From an uncultured Gammaproteobacteria bacterium (lineage in GTDB: Bacteria > Pseudomonadota > Gammaproteobacteria > Pseudomonadales > Azotimanducaceae): a DNA stretch of 57,734 nt. A program made the translations under genes and the position numbers. Below the pieces are notes generated by a model. The model was not told the origin of the DNA and ran no database searches. It worked only from the letters and a program-made list of their open reading frames with translations. Location of the stretch: positions 1-57,734 of the forward strand of contig CAJXUL010000002.1 of the NCBI GenBank assembly GCA_913060615.1, written 5' to 3'. Position 1 is the stretch's first letter. Each line of letters begins with the position of its first letter. This document shows, piece by piece, positions 50-19,178 of this stretch.

Positions 50-3000
50 CATCAGAAAAATCTAGGCTGATACGTTTTGCTAGGGCAGATACATTCAATA
101 AACTGACTAACCGCAAACCACCTTGCCCCGCCGCCACATCCAAAAATCGGCCCTCTTTCGCCAAGATAGACACGCCGCCCTCTCCATCAACAACATTAAA
201 GTTAGCGGGGGAGCCAGGCCAGGAAATATTTCCTGAAAGTCGCGCAAAAACGGTTTCCATGACAGGGACGTAGCCCCAAGCCGGAAGCGTCGTCAGCAAA
301 TTATCCAAATCGGCAGATCCAGAAAAAGAGGACCTACCGTTGTCTAAGTCCCAGAAGGCGACACTGTCTTTTATGTGCACCCCTTTTACGTCTATAGATC
401 CAATATTGAAGCGAACACCAGTCTCTTCCGGTCTAACGTTGAAATCCCACGCGCCAAAAGATTTGTCAGCAACGCGCAATGAACCTACACGCACATTTGC
501 CTTAGGCAGCGTTCTGCCCACCTCCTCGGACATCGGGTCAACCAACGTAACGCCATCTGCGGCCAACTGATTGTTTTCCGGAAGTTGCAAAAAGGAAAGA
601 TCTAGATCAATCAGTTCTAAATCTGTTAGGTCGATACGACCGATAATAGCATCCGCTTTTAAATCAAAAACTAGTTCATCGGCTCTGCGCGAACCGTTTA
701 GATTAACGCCGTCAAAAACAAATTCTCCAATAATCAATTCAGCCACGTCAAGGTCTTCAATCAACCAATCGAAAGGTAAAACTATAGCCGCCTCGCCGCC
801 CTGAGAAACCCAATCAGCTATGTTTAAGCGAGGCATTTGGCCAACAATTTTTAGCCCCGCAGGCTCAAAGCCAGATACCGGAGCAACTGAGGAAATACCA
901 ATTGCACCAAAAATTTCGCCACTTAAAGGGTTACCAACTTCTTCTGGACTTGTCTGCAGCCACCCTTGAGTGCTTTTATACTGCCAGCCTATATGTTGAC
1001 CTTCGGGCAGAAACTTTACAACAAATTCACTCAGCTCCGCGGCATCTAACTCCTTGCCAAATTCCGCAGGCAAATTCACGCTCATGCCTACAAGGTCGGT
1101 TTGCACGACCAAATTGGAAACTTCACCTCGCATAGATAAATTCAAGCGAGAAGAAAATTCAGCCTCACCCTGCAATACCGTGGGTGCGTCAACGCTAAGT
1201 AGTTGTAGCGCCTTTTCGGCATTGACCCGCCCATCAATATCAATGTGCAACCATTCCTCGTCACTACTTGAAGCGATCACAGAAGGGCGATCAAACATTG
1301 AAGCATTCAATTGCCCGTGAAAGTGGTGTGGAAGAGTGAAGCTAGCAGGACCGCTGATATCTGCGACAGCCAATCTATAGCCCGGCAAATCTAAAGAGAG
1401 ATCGGATATTTGCAAACTTACATTCGCCACCAAATCCTTCGCCGACAGATTAGGTATTGGGTTTAGGTCGACAGCTTTACTGATATTTGGAGCAGCACCT
1501 TGAACCAACGGCACTTCCAAGTGAGCAACCATAGCAATTTCACCCTCGCCTATTGCCCGCCAATCGTCTTCAATAAAGCCCATTATTTCTTTCAGGGGAG
1601 AAGCACGGATAAAATCTAACGCTACCTGCCCCGTCGGCGTTGCAGAAAAATCTACCGAAATAATACCCATCTTATCGATATGAGCTTTCGCTTGGGTAAA
1701 TTCGATTCCAAAGGATTCACCTTCAAGATCTTCTACAACAGTTTCTAACCCAAGAACTCGGAGGCGTCCTTGAGCTTTCGAAATGTCCGGCCAGCCCTGT
1801 AAATAGTTCACTTGAACAGAATGAAAATCAGCGGATAACTCAAAACGCCGGTCGAACTTACGCTCAGGTTCAACATGAATTTGGCTTTGCAGAGCTATCT
1901 CGACATTGTCAAAGTGACCGTTCTTCGGCGCGGTTTTCAACCAGGTGTAAAGGCCTGTACTGAGTTTATAGGGCACATAACTTTGGGCGTGATCCAACTC
2001 AGCCGTGTCTACTTTCACCCTAACAACCACTCTTTGCTCGTACTTCTCTAAAGGTCTGCTGGTTGCAAAAGCCCCGGATATTGTAGTGTCACCCCTCTGG
2101 GCGACAATCTTCTCTCCGCGCAACGCAACATATCCAGGCCGAATAATGAGCGACAATTCGCCAACTGCGCTGTCCAATTGCCACGAGTCATAAAATAGAT
2201 CTGGGAAAAGCATGGTCATATCCTGACCACGCACCGACATGCCAATATGTCCTGAATCGCCCCATATCTTAGCGTTTGCGTTACTTAGCGAGGGCACGCC
2301 TCGATAGCCTTGAAATTGACCTTTCGCCACCTCAGCGGCGTAACCAAACCCTAACTCAGAGTCGGCGAATAAATACAGGTCTTGTGCAGACCCTGATGCT
2401 TTGAGCGCATTAAGCCATTCCGACAATACGTGAGATGGATCCGCGGCTTCTATGAGAAATTCACTAATGGCACCGAGGTTCTGAGTTGCTGACCAAATTT
2501 CGAGGGCGGGCTTAGCTTTGGCTCCGCCAAAGGACCTACTGTTGGCCTCTAGGTCTAAGCGCAAAAGAAAATCAGATAACTCAATGGAGCTAGATGAATT
2601 GGATAATTCAATTTGCGACAGGGCGCCAACAAAGTGACGATCTAAACTCCGCAGCTGCAAAACGAAATCTACAACAATCTCATTAGACAGTAGCGTTGAC
2701 TTGGATGCCACAATACGAACATTAGTCTGACCACTGGTTCTATTGCCCTTCAATGCGCTCAAGTAGCCATCACTCAGCGTTAGCAATAGCTCACTGTCTG
2801 TAACCAATCCGGCCGGGAGCGTCAAACTACCCCCAGCAAAATATTGCTCGGAATAAGTGTCAGGCACACTGGAGTCGAGCTCGTAAATATAACCAATTGT
2901 TAACGGTTGAGCAGCCGCCCTCGCCAACCCTACAACTATATGACCAAAGCGCTCATGACCGCGATTGGCTAAATCTAGACTTATAGAATAGGTTTGAGAT

Positions 3001-3551
3001 TCAGCCCCACTAGGCGTCAGATATACATTTGCCGTGCCTAGTATGCGCTCACCCTTGGTAACGACTTTTTCTAGGTCAAACGGCAAGTCCACGTTACCTT
3101 GATTACGTAACCGCCAACCACTCGAAGTCTGATCTAGGTACAAGTCGAACTGATCCCACCTGAGCAACGCTGGGATCCATGTTGCCTGCACCAAGCTTTC
3201 AATGAAGGCAACTTCAAATTTTAGAGCTTCAATATGACCAGCACCAAATTCTAGCTTGGCAATTTCAATAACCGGATTGAGCCCTCGCCAAGACGCCGAA
3301 ACACCGGAAACTTTCACATTCAACGGGGCAAGGGCCGAGTTTATGTCATCGGCAAAGTCAGAGGCGAAATTTACGCCGACTCTTCCCAAGCCCTGTACCA
3401 CGGCAAGAATCAACACCAGCGTTGTACAAAGTATGAGCAGGGGGCGAAGCACAAATTTCTGCACTGACCTTCGCAAGCCTTGGGAATTTTGTGAGGGTAA
3501 CGAGTTCAACCCCAATACCTTTGCATAGTAGCCAAGATAACGCCGACCCAA
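50..3551 (-). CDS. yhdP: YhdP family AsmA-like envelope protein, C-terminus cut off by contig end
   Basis: A very large protein (about 1,167 genomic residues present) with one N-terminal membrane segment (residues ~35-55, rich in Leu/Val/Ile) followed by a long periplasmic part made of beta-strand-like repeats, as in the AsmA-like YhdP/TIGR02099 family. YhdP in E. coli is a bridge-like protein moving phospholipid between inner and outer membranes; that role is inferred here from family. The reading frame continues into adapter sequence, where it picks up the false tail SYTHLTLPTNREV; the true C-terminus (about 100 residues in family members) is missing. The most upstream start is a TTG at 3551; a GTG at 3464, just before the membrane segment, is an alternative. 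It sits 61 bp after rng on the same strand, the usual rng-yhdP order. Confidence 0.85.
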
Positions 3552-16715: not shown

Positions 16716-17126
16716 TGGTGGGCCCACCAGGACTCGAACCTGGGACCAATGGATTCACATTCTCACTGCCTTTCGACAATGTGTGGACTATCTCACCTCC
16801 CTCGCCAACTTCTCACTAAATTTCTTAGTACTAAGTTTCGTTAGGGAGCGGGACGCTCTAGCCTGTTATTAAGAGCACTTGAAGCCTTTTTTTCGTCTGG
16901 GTTTAAACAATGTTTAAACTGGACCAAAGCTCGGCTTCAGCTCTCAGGTAGTCTCTGCACCTTCCGACAGTGTACTGTCGGCTTGGCTCAGGATTGCCGG
17001 CGCACCTGCCATTACAGCTAGTTCGCTACGGTTTCCCTGAATTCATCCCGTTCATCCTGACCCTTTCGGTGTCAGGCGCACCTTTATTGATGAGTCCACT
17101 GCTCTAACCAACTGAGCTATAGGCCC
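16716..17126 (-). tRNA. tRNA-Ile(CAU), interrupted by a group I intron
   Basis: On the minus strand, exon 1 (17126-17090) and exon 2 (16755-16716) join to a 77-nt tRNA: acceptor stem GGGCCTA/TGGGCCC with one G-T pair, D arm GCTC-AGTTGGTTA-GAGC, anticodon arm GTGGA-CTCATAA-TCCAT, five-base variable loop TGGTC, T arm CCAGG-TTCGAGT-CCTGG, discriminator A and encoded CCA. The anticodon is CAU. The sequence looks like Ile2 (AUA reader after lysidine modification by TilS) rather than elongator or initiator Met: GACTCATAATC followed by TTGGTC is the Ile2 pattern, and E. coli ileX also lies near rpoD. A 334-nt intron separates positions 36 and 37. Lies 150 bp downstream of rpoD, same strand. Confidence 0.92.
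16756..17089 (-). ncRNA. Group I intron in tRNA-Ile(CAU)
   Basis: 334-nt element placed exactly after the anticodon CAU, ending in the obligatory G (16756). Core motifs: GGCAATCCTGAGCCAA (P4 region, 16983-16998) and GGTGCAGAGACT (P6/P7 region, 16950-16961), both nearly identical to cyanobacterial/plastid tRNA-Leu introns. P7 pairs GACTA (16949-16953) with TAGTC (16786-16790); P3 pairs CAGGT (17004-17008) with ACCTG (16945-16949). P1 can form between exon CAU and intron GUG with the required G-U wobble at the splice site. GAAA tetraloops cap P2 (CCTGAC/GTCAGG) and P9 (CATTGTC/GGCAGTG). Peripheral hairpins include CCGACAG/CTGTCGG. Subgroup probably IC3. No homing-endonuclease ORF; it is too short. 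Same insertion site as the Azoarcus tRNA-Ile intron. Confidence 0.93.
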
Positions 17127-17276: not shown

Positions 17277-19178
17277 CTAAACGTTATTTCTACCTTTGCC
17301 ACCTTCCACACTTTCATCAAGAAAGCTGCGCAAGTGTTCTGACCGGCTAGGGTGTCGCAGTTTGCGCAATGCCTTAGCCTCAATCTGACGTATTCTTTCA
17401 CGTGTTACATCAAATTGCTTGCCTACCTCTTCAAGAGTGTGGTCGGTATTCATATCAATACCGAAGCGCATACGCAGTACTTTCGCTTCACGAGCAGTTA
17501 AACCACCCAACACATCCTTTGTCGCCTCTCTTAGTCCTTCGCCTGTAGCAAGGTCTATCGGCGAGCCAATTGTACTGTCTTCAATAAAGTCCCCCAAGTG
17601 CGAATCTTCATCATCGCCAATTGGCGTTTCCATGGAGATAGGCTCTTTGGCAATTTTTAACACCCTGCGCACTTTGTCTTCAGGCATTTCCATACGCTCG
17701 CCAAGTTCCTCTGGCGTTGGCTCACGACCCATCTCCTGCAACATCTGCCGCGAAACACGGTTCAGTTTGTTGATGGTTTCTATCATGTGCACTGGAATAC
17801 GAATGGTTCTGGCTTGGTCCGCAATTGAGCGCGTAATGGCTTGACGAATCCACCATGTAGCATAAGTTGAAAACTTATAACCACGGCGATATTCAAACTT
17901 ATCAACCGCCTTCATTAGACCAATATTTCCTTCTTGTATCAGATCCAAAAACTGCAAACCACGGTTGGTGTATTTCTTTGCAATCGAAATAACCAAGCGC
18001 AAGTTTGCTTCCACCATGTCTTTTTTCGCTCGGCGGGCTTTTGCCTCACCTAATGACATGCGTCGATTAATGTCTTTAATTTCAACAATGCTGAGTTCAG
18101 TGATCTTACTCAGAGCTTTCATTTTCTTCTGCGAGCGCAGAATATCTTCACGCTGGTTTTCAAGGCCAGTGGCGTACTCTTTCTTAATCTTGGAGATTTT
18201 GTTGATCCAAGTCACACTGATTTCATTACTAACATATTCCTTACGGAATACATCACGCGGCACACGTGCACGGCGCACAACAGCATTCGTTATGACGCGT
18301 TCATGACGGCGCACAATACCTTGCGCTTCTCGAGCCATAGCGACCATACGATCAAAGTGCTTAGGCACTAACTTAAAGCAGCAATAAGCTTCAGCTAACT
18401 TAACCATCTGAGCTTCCGATTCTTTGCTACTAGCGCCTTTCTCTTCAATGATCTTCAGCGACTTATTGTATTGACGCTTAAGCAGAGAAAAACGCTTCTT
18501 AGCTTCTACGGGATCTGGCCCCTTGTTTTCTTCTTCCTCTTCCTCAGCCACCACCGGAGTACCGTCCGCATTCAACGCTGGCGTCCCGTCTGCATTAAGC
18601 ACAGGTTCTGGCTTCTTCGGTTCTTGGCCAACTTGAGTAGCTGCAGGCACATTGTCTGTTGGGTCTAAATAACCTACCAACAAATCCGCTAGTTTTTCTT
18701 CTTTGGTTACGTCGGCATATGTCTCAAGCAAATAATTGACGGTGCCCGGATAATAAGCAAGCGCTGTTAAAACATCTCTAATGCCTTCTTCAATACGCTT
18801 AGCAATCGCTATTTCACCTTCACGGGTGAGTAGTTCAACTGTACCCATTTCACGCATATACATACGCACTGGATCTGTTGTACGACCTGCTTCGGTCTCT
18901 ACAGCCGCAAGGGCCGCTGCAGCTTCTTCCGCAGCTAATTCGTCTGCAGTATTTTCTTCATTGGAAAGCAATTCATCCGCATCGGGTGCTGTTTCATAAA
19001 CAGTAATGCCCATATCGTTAATCATGCGAATAATGTCTTCGATCTGCTCCGGATCGGAAATATCGTCTGGCAAGTGATCGTTAACTTCGCCGTAGGTCAA
19101 AAAGCCCTGCTCTTTACCTTTTTTAATAAGGTCTTTTAGGCGTGATTGCTGCTGTTCAGTGGAAATTTGATTACTCAT
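17277..19178 (-). CDS. rpoD: RNA polymerase primary sigma factor RpoD (sigma-70)
   Basis: 633-residue housekeeping sigma factor. Domains in order: region 1.1 (1-~80), region 1.2 ([21 protein letters not shown], ~102-122), a non-conserved acidic insert (~180-240) carrying the twice-repeated LNADGTP, region 2 with [20 protein letters not shown] (-10 recognition), region 3 ([18 protein letters not shown]), region 4 with [20 protein letters not shown] (-35 recognition helix-turn-helix). ATG at 19178. Last gene of the rpsU-yqeY-dnaG-rpoD cluster; the 464 bp gap before it may carry its own promoter. Confidence 0.98.

Follow-up and report, generated by a model that had tools for sequence, protein, structure and literature searches.

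A tRNA-Ile(CAU) gene interrupted by a group I intron in an uncultured marine gammaproteobacterium, and related introns in bacteria and phages

Introduction

The CAU anticodon of tRNA-Ile2 is normally modified to lysidine-AU by the enzyme TilS, and the modified tRNA reads AUA codons. In the stretch of DNA analyzed here (57,734 nt, from an uncultured gammaproteobacterium, and referred to below as the window), the gene for this tRNA lies in two pieces, which raises the question of whether it is the working tRNA-Ile2 gene of the cell and, if so, how the intervening sequence would be removed, what type of element it represents and how it came to be there.

Group I introns in tRNA genes are known in cyanobacteria, and in alpha- and beta-proteobacteria (PMC4033280), and tRNA-Ile2 genes of Acidovorax and Burkholderia carry them according to a survey that also counted 36 genomes without fMet or Ile2 calls owing to group I introns (PMC8450103). 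Those introns are found in the same tRNA as the one in the window, also in Proteobacteria, and are likewise missed by standard tRNA finders. Putative group I introns in tRNA-Arg and tRNA-Leu have been reported in Beggiatoa and Thiomargarita (PMC4853749); these are gammaproteobacterial tRNA hosts, as in the window, but the tRNAs are different, and that report determined neither intron structure nor type. Other literature cited in this context comprises PMC6125680, PMC11835236 and PMC6274277. Searches of an open-licence library turned up no paper describing an intron in tRNA-Ile(CAU), either of HTCC2089-type bacteria or of a phage.

The split tRNA gene

The halves of the tRNA-Ile(CAU) gene are located on the minus strand (as are the intron elements and rpoD described below) at 17126-17090 and 16755-16716, separated by a group I intron of 334 nt (17089-16756). 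The 5' exon (37 nt) ends in the anticodon CAU, with the intron following U36, and has the same sequence as the corresponding half in 17 intact orthologues; the 3' exon (40 nt) has an encoded CCA. Directly upstream of the split tRNA is rpoD (17277-19178; NCBIfam RpoD, 851.1 bits), an adjacency kept in many relatives. The intron has C as its first base and G as its last, and its match to RF00028 (71 bits against a gathering score of 50, E 4.5e-16, model positions 1-253) makes this the sole Rfam family above gathering score in the window. The exon boundaries, encoded CCA and intron length given in a preliminary description, which was made from the letters alone, were all correct, and the Rfam covariance search that it had suggested as a check returned the group I family it had expected. 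No ORF is present in the window intron, the longest stop-free stretch being 58 aa, and by the same check it encodes no homing endonuclease.

When the exons were joined (77 nt), ARAGORN predicted a single intact tRNA with anticodon CAT, which it labelled Met because it does not separate Ile2 from Met. The joined gene is 81.8% identical to the annotated E. coli tRNA-Ile with anticodon CAT, and this comparison favours tRNA-Ile2 over tRNA-Met; the pair of records ranked highest (83.1%) carry a tRNA-Lys annotation. It had been anticipated that tRNA finders might miss this gene, and with default settings ARAGORN indeed found no tRNAs in the window. With introns allowed it recovered the split gene but named it Gln(CTG), because it placed the junction one base early. 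The intron would thereby account for the lack of a tRNA-Ile2 in the output of a standard tRNA finder in this lineage.

Three trivial explanations can be set aside. A chance fold is ruled out by the E value given above together with the covariation (see later), a pseudogene by the 100% identity of the exons to the 17 intact orthologues, and a contig artefact by the presence of the same split in at least 74 genomes.

Intron structure and covariation

For comparative analysis, 75 Ile introns with both exons were assembled, 71 from the family genome search and four from named records (L050, L051, L052 and L120). Two loci that reach contig ends (L032, L035) and one without an ARAGORN call (L034) are outside this set, and are counted among the 74 split genomes by virtue of an RF00028 match plus an exon half. 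Alignment A1 contains 48 of the 75 introns (46 distinct rows), and a structure of 60 named pairs was counted; left out were 27 loci, made up of near copies, loci of genus g37 and further ones that have P1 inserts. Over the 46 distinct rows, 98.0% of cells are paired, and 30 pairs (343 cells) are changed on both sides. None of 500 shuffles scored as high on any of five measures, and slid controls gave 33.6-43.9% paired cells.

A C at the first position and a G at the last are found in all 75 Ile introns. The internal guide GUG (17079-17081) pairs with the exon CAU to form P1, which consists of three pairs only, with U.G at the splice site, and both guide and pairing are invariant in the 46 distinct aligned sequences. 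The motif GGTG occurs upstream of P3 in all 75, starting no more than 16 nt from the splice site in 61 and, because of an insert, further 3' in 14. P2 (17056-17076) is a hairpin with a GAAA loop, in which all eight pairs are changed on both sides and 89.5% of cells are paired. The strands of P3 (17045-17050 and 16849-16854) are paired in 99.3% of cells by the A1 covariation count, and two of the six pairs are changed on both sides. P4 (17036-17041 with 16987-16992, 99.3% of cells paired) encloses P5 (16997-17031, from the fold), so that the two together span 16987-17041, and they are followed by P6 and the P6a hairpin (16960-16986), where all seven P6a pairs are changed on both sides. The guanosine-binding helix P7 (5' strand 16949-16953, 3' strand 16786-16790) is invariant and paired in all 46 rows. 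Both-side changes occur in three of five pairs of P8 (16797-16848) and in six of seven pairs of P9 (16764-16781), the latter a hairpin with a GAAA loop and 95.9% of cells paired.

Most of the covariation is found in P2, P6a, P7.2, P8 and P9. Pairs changed on both sides are present in P3, P4, P6a and P8, and P6 (CC/GG), like P7, is invariant and paired in 46 of 46. Covariation is silent on P1, P5, P6, P7 and P7.1 because these are invariant within the Ile alignment. The minimum-energy fold of the window intron alone yields the named helices except for P1 and P7, the first being missing because the exon was not included and the second because it forms a pseudoknot. The elements noted in the preliminary description were all confirmed: P3, P7, P9, the GAAA loops (of P2 and P9), the GUG opposite the exon CAU, and a G at the end of the intron.

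Split and intact genes among relatives

Genomes were scored as intact if they had a match of at least 90% identity over 75-77 nt; weaker or shorter matches were left out, and four candidates were scored per genome in the family search for intact copies. Across the 206 genomes of the GTDB family, at least 74 are split and, among the matches listed, 77 are intact (17 of them at 100%), giving the exact empty site of the intron in relatives. Among the same matches, no genome is on both lists, and 55 of the 206 are on neither. Four split genomes are single contigs (G047, G048, G204, G205), and in each the two matches are the halves of the gene. Within the genus (40 genomes) there are nine genomes with an intact copy, seven of them identical at 100%; none of the nine has an RF00028 match, and at all nine loci there is an rpoD match in the same stretch. 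The split gene is real, well supported and of a known kind; most notable are its wide spread in the family, its mutual exclusion with the intact form, the P7.1-type architecture of the intron and the phage tRNA genes split at the same site (see later). The distribution of split and intact forms makes intron gain and loss in a single-copy tRNA gene testable.

Apparent second copies in split genomes were of two kinds. In G008, G009 and G039 the partial matches (80%) proved to be tRNA-Lys(UUU). G018 and G019 have additional 3' halves, each preceded by the 3' end of an intron at the end of a contig, and these look like assembly overlaps.

Among named records, those closest in RpoD are a marine gamma proteobacterium HTCC2089 MAG (97%, L050) and K189A clade MAGs (86%, L051 and L052), all of which have the same split tRNA-Ile(CAU), and the next (73%, L053) has an intact tRNA. 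Legionella adelaidensis is a named example of an intact gene beside rpoD. A search of plasmids with the tRNA gave 5' exon halves and one intact tRNA, with no intron. In genus g4 (L130, L133, L136, L137, L139, L140, L142 and L143) the split tRNA-Ile is near a sigma-factor gene; this is apparently not the rpoD locus, since the sigma factor is only 45-51% identical to RpoD.

AUA decoding and the proposed splicing pathway

In its own assembly, the split gene was the one place where the 77-nt joined sequence found its halves complete and at 100% identity, and the next match (79% over positions 3-63) is tRNA-Asn. The search for a second, intronless tRNA-Ile2, also suggested in the preliminary description, therefore found just the split copy in this assembly. 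The assembly is a draft of 309 contigs (95.87% complete) with 19 intact tRNAs above the Rfam cut-off, none of which was called Ile. The only one with anticodon CAT (C44) is initiator-like by eye, and does not match the joined gene. AUA accounts for 141 of the 724 Ile codons in the 27 predicted ORFs of the window. TilS is above cut-off in 35 of the 40 genus genomes; it was not found in the own assembly, where the sole match is TtcA, and this is most simply explained by an assembly gap. Given the use of AUA, the lack of an Ile call among the 19 intact tRNAs and the occurrence of TilS in congeners, we infer that splicing is very probably required for growth.

The covariance-model match, the covariation, the intact orthologues at the same locus and the lack of a second copy in the assembly all agree with the original proposal of a tRNA-Ile(CAU) gene split by a group I intron. 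We hold with high confidence that this locus is the tRNA-Ile2 gene of the cell, interrupted directly after its anticodon by an ORF-less group I intron that would be removed by self-splicing. In the pathway predicted from the sequence, a pre-tRNA would be transcribed downstream of rpoD, and the guide GUG would pair with the exon CAU to form P1, setting U.G at the 5' splice site. A guanosine held in P7 would then attack the 5' splice site, and the freed 3'-OH of the exon would attack behind the last G of the intron, so that the two halves become one standard tRNA of 77 nt. TilS would convert the CAU anticodon of this product to lysidine-AU, allowing AUA to be read. If so, a decoding step that is probably essential would depend on a self-splicing RNA in this uncultured marine lineage.

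A very unlikely alternative is that the intron is dead, or decaying as a relic, with AUA read by another tRNA, which would be an Ile(UAU) or an intact Ile2 missing from the assembly. Such a missing copy is conceivable for this particular genome, whose assembly is a draft in 309 contigs with just 19 intact tRNAs above the Rfam cut-off; TilS was not found in it either. However, the core helices are kept with compensatory changes across the family, none of the 206 genomes is on both the split and the intact lists (among the matches listed), four split ones are single contigs, and no Ile call was made among the 19 intact tRNAs, the CAT one being initiator-like by eye. Removal by proteins (a tRNA splicing endonuclease and ligase), as in archaea, is extremely unlikely: archaeal introns have a similar position next to the anticodon (PMC4033280), but the sequence has a full group I core, a guide with U.G, and a terminal G.

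A second intron in the same genome

Besides the intron in tRNA-Ile(CAU), the genome has one other RF00028 match, which at 44.1 bits is below the gathering score. This compact intron (C150:5746-6048, corresponding to L002:1471-1773) splits tRNA-Arg(CCU) after CCU and, by eye, has a guide GGG and a terminal G. It was found in 13 genus genomes, 12 of which also have the Ile intron. Copying between the Ile and Arg introns within the genome was considered and rejected, as the two are apart in the tree.

The P7.1/P7.2 domain and intron type

Between the 5' strand of P7 and the 3' strand of P3, the window intron carries a domain of 87 nt (16862-16948; CCUGAG...CUUAAUAACAGG) that comprises P7.1, P7.2 and an enlarged hairpin, with three of the five P7.2 pairs changed on both sides; the fold shows the domain as well. 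Every one of the 75 Ile introns has it (found by a pattern in 73, seen by eye in L145 and L156), as does each of the 17 introns in Ile(CAU) that were read in the class sample. The P7.1 pattern is absent from the 13 Arg(CCU) rows and from 23 of the 24 Leu rows of the family, the 24th Leu row having no recognisable P7. In bacterial Ile introns P7.1 is CCUG/CAGG, and elsewhere it is GUGG/CCAC (L329), GCGG/CCGC (L332 and L263), CCCG/CGGG (L351) or GGUG/CACC (L319), all complementary; these pairs were read by eye and are given without a count from the small alignment A2, which is off by two columns for L326, L351 and L319. In the order and class samples, four introns hosted by tRNA genes other than Ile (L234, L236, L237 and L239) show the same P7.1 pattern.

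The best known intron for comparison is that in tRNA-Ile(CAU) of Azoarcus BH72, which we take to share with the window intron its tRNA, its site after CAU and its CAU/GUG guide. In the Azoarcus intron, P7 runs almost directly into P3, and the IC3 type to which it belongs is defined without P7.1/P7.2 between P7 and P3. The likeness to Azoarcus drawn in the preliminary description thus holds for the site and guide but not for the architecture. The domain is present here and is not known from Azoarcus, which indicates a different structural type at the same site. With its 87-nt P7.1/P7.2 domain, the window intron by this definition falls outside IC3. Subgroup IA combines P7.1/P7.2 with IA-specific details of the core; the former feature is present in the window intron, which shares it with a phage terminase intron (see later), and the window intron is a likely candidate member of subgroup IA. 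The P7.1/P7.2 domain probably braces the core. The window intron (334 nt) is also larger than that of Azoarcus BH72, for which the preliminary description gave 205 nt, and the Azoarcus ribozyme has been given as 197 nt (PMC12373953). The title of a published reference files the Azoarcus intron as IC3. P7.1 and P7.2 help to define group I classes (PMC3984707). The introns described here would represent natural tRNA-Ile ribozymes, so far predicted ones, built differently from the standard model of Azoarcus.

Group I introns in the wider order and class

RF00028 matches were found in 22 of the 40 genus genomes, and in at least 81 of 206 family, 32 of 391 order and 54 of 370 class genomes; the last three counts are lower bounds because stricter filters apply above 40 genomes, and for the order and class only genomes with a completeness of 90% or more were sampled. 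The suggestion that group I introns in tRNA genes are rare in Gammaproteobacteria does not stand, given at least 74 split genes in the 206 family genomes and RF00028 matches in at least 54 of the 370 class genomes. Gammaproteobacteria in the GTDB sense takes in the former Betaproteobacteria.

The flanking sequences identify the hosts as tRNA-Ile(CAU), tRNA-Arg(CCU), and tRNA-Leu(UAA) split between U34 and A35. ARAGORN gave Leu(CAA), Lys(CTT) and Gln(TTG) as further hosts, and Thr(UGU) was recognized by eye where the program gives His, Asp or Ser. In the order sample outside the family of the window there are 19 loci, and none of the 17 called by ARAGORN was read as Ile(CAU); two (L226 and L230) were uncalled, and a few matches are without a locus. 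Presumably the Arg(CCU) intron in the present genome and the Leu(UAA) introns in sister genomes have the same host tRNAs as the introns of Agrobacterium tRNA-Arg(CCU) and cyanobacterial tRNA-Leu(UAA). The Arg and Leu introns seen here lack the P7.1 pattern and are apart from the Ile introns in the tree.

Several other loci were recorded. The 24 tRNA-Leu introns of the family (L167, L168, L172, L174, L175, L180 and others) are in UAA genes between U34 and A35, which we take to be the site of the cyanobacterial and plastid tRNA-Leu intron. L216 was called Leu(CAA). Six RF00028 matches in the family (L158, L165, L179, L189, L170 and L215) are inside 23S rRNA genes, and four of these are 655-660 nt in length. 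Further tRNA genes with introns in the order and class samples (L227-L229, L232, L234, L236, L237 and L239; L251, L252, L255 and L259; L263) are Leu(CAA) and Lys(CTT) by ARAGORN, and Thr(UGU) by eye. L247 and L248 were called by ARAGORN as tRNA-Met(CAT) with an intron, with a junction that by eye misfits the seven-base anticodon loop.

Phage and viral tRNA-Ile(CAU) introns

According to a 2014 review, all phage introns seen until then were in protein genes (PMC3984707), and a phage tRNA-Stop call with a 2.5-kb insert has been mentioned as a possible artefact by its own authors (PMC5746245). In Klebsiella phage phiKp_21, tRNA-Ile(CAU) is split at the same site as in the window by an RF00028 intron scoring 103.7 bits, so that host tRNA and site are common to both. 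The terminase intron of Vibrio phage 11895-B1 (RF00028, 83.6 bits) has the same P7.1 domain (CCTGAG...CTTAATAACAGG) as the window intron but is hosted by a protein gene. Over about one third of its length the window intron is 75.5% identical to the Vibrio phage intron and 71.7% to that of the Klebsiella phage.

A pattern scan of IMG/VR gave 30 stretches, ten of which were submitted to Rfam; the other 20 look like matches outside tRNAs. Three of the ten (L326, L329 and L351) have RF00028 introns above gathering score located after CAU. Another four (L332, L333, L343 and L349) share one common further insert, of 751 nt by ARAGORN in L332, L343 and L349, with core motifs visible by eye; taken whole, all four stay below the gathering score of RF00028. 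The insert of L332 holds an HNH_3 gene (38.7 bits, 2396-3007, minus strand). The last three (L334, L340 and L350) have tRNA-like 5' halves with inserts that are long or cut off. Phage and viral-contig tRNA-Ile(CAU) genes split at the same site are found at L319:523-833, L326, L329, L351 and L332:2322-3072, and such phage genes offer a concrete vehicle for the spread of the intron.

Vertical or horizontal origin

One account of these data is that the intron is an ancient and purely vertical resident of these bacteria, and was not spread by phages; in our judgement this has an even chance of being right. As would be seen after long residence, intron and RpoD distances are strongly correlated (rho 0.83 over 23 loci, with none of 9999 permutations as high), and many of the loci adjoin rpoD. 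A quick tree left out L233, L235, L238 and L244 (their genomes being already represented) as well as rows of at least 420 nt (L246). In it, a single branch (SH-aLRT 92) separates the 92 bacterial Ile introns from the other rows, and the 13 Arg introns of the family form a separate group (96). In a careful tree, which carries a warning of long branches, the viral Ile introns are on the other side, apart from the bacterial ones and grouped with non-Ile rows (96/65), and therefore no direct transfer is shown.

Against purely vertical descent, the presence of the Ile intron is patchy, requiring nine changes on the RpoD tree, at least three of them forced by well-supported branches. The number and direction of gains cannot be set, because the RpoD nucleotide tree is weak (11 of 37 inner branches starred). 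The same site and guide are also used in the Klebsiella phage and in viral contigs, one lineage of which has an HNH gene. Moreover, in the careful tree the tRNA-Lys(CTT) intron L263 falls inside the Ile group, with two changes forced, so that the lineage may have changed its host gene.

We tentatively put forward a second account, itself rather doubtful, in which the introns belong to a mobile lineage of the tRNA-Ile(CAU) anticodon loop that has been moved by large, tRNA-bearing phages, where it is armed with an HNH endonuclease. Marine gammaproteobacteria might have captured it several times and lost the endonuclease, after which it would have become required for their sole AUA-reading tRNA; its P7.1/P7.2 type would be distinct from the Azoarcus type.

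Further features of viral loci

Three additional features were seen near viral introns. An ORF of 326 aa (L326:4211-5191), on the opposite strand and without a Pfam match, reaches the 3' end of the viral split tRNA; as a guess by eye, it is possibly a free-standing homing endonuclease. A viral tRNA-Ile-like gene (L334:2482-3055) has a 574-nt insert in which the core motifs of two introns can be seen by eye, perhaps representing an intron within another intron. Lastly, in the crAss-like phage cr6_1 a RAGATH-7-assoc RNA (L320:330-451, 133.4 bits) is located just upstream of a group I intron.
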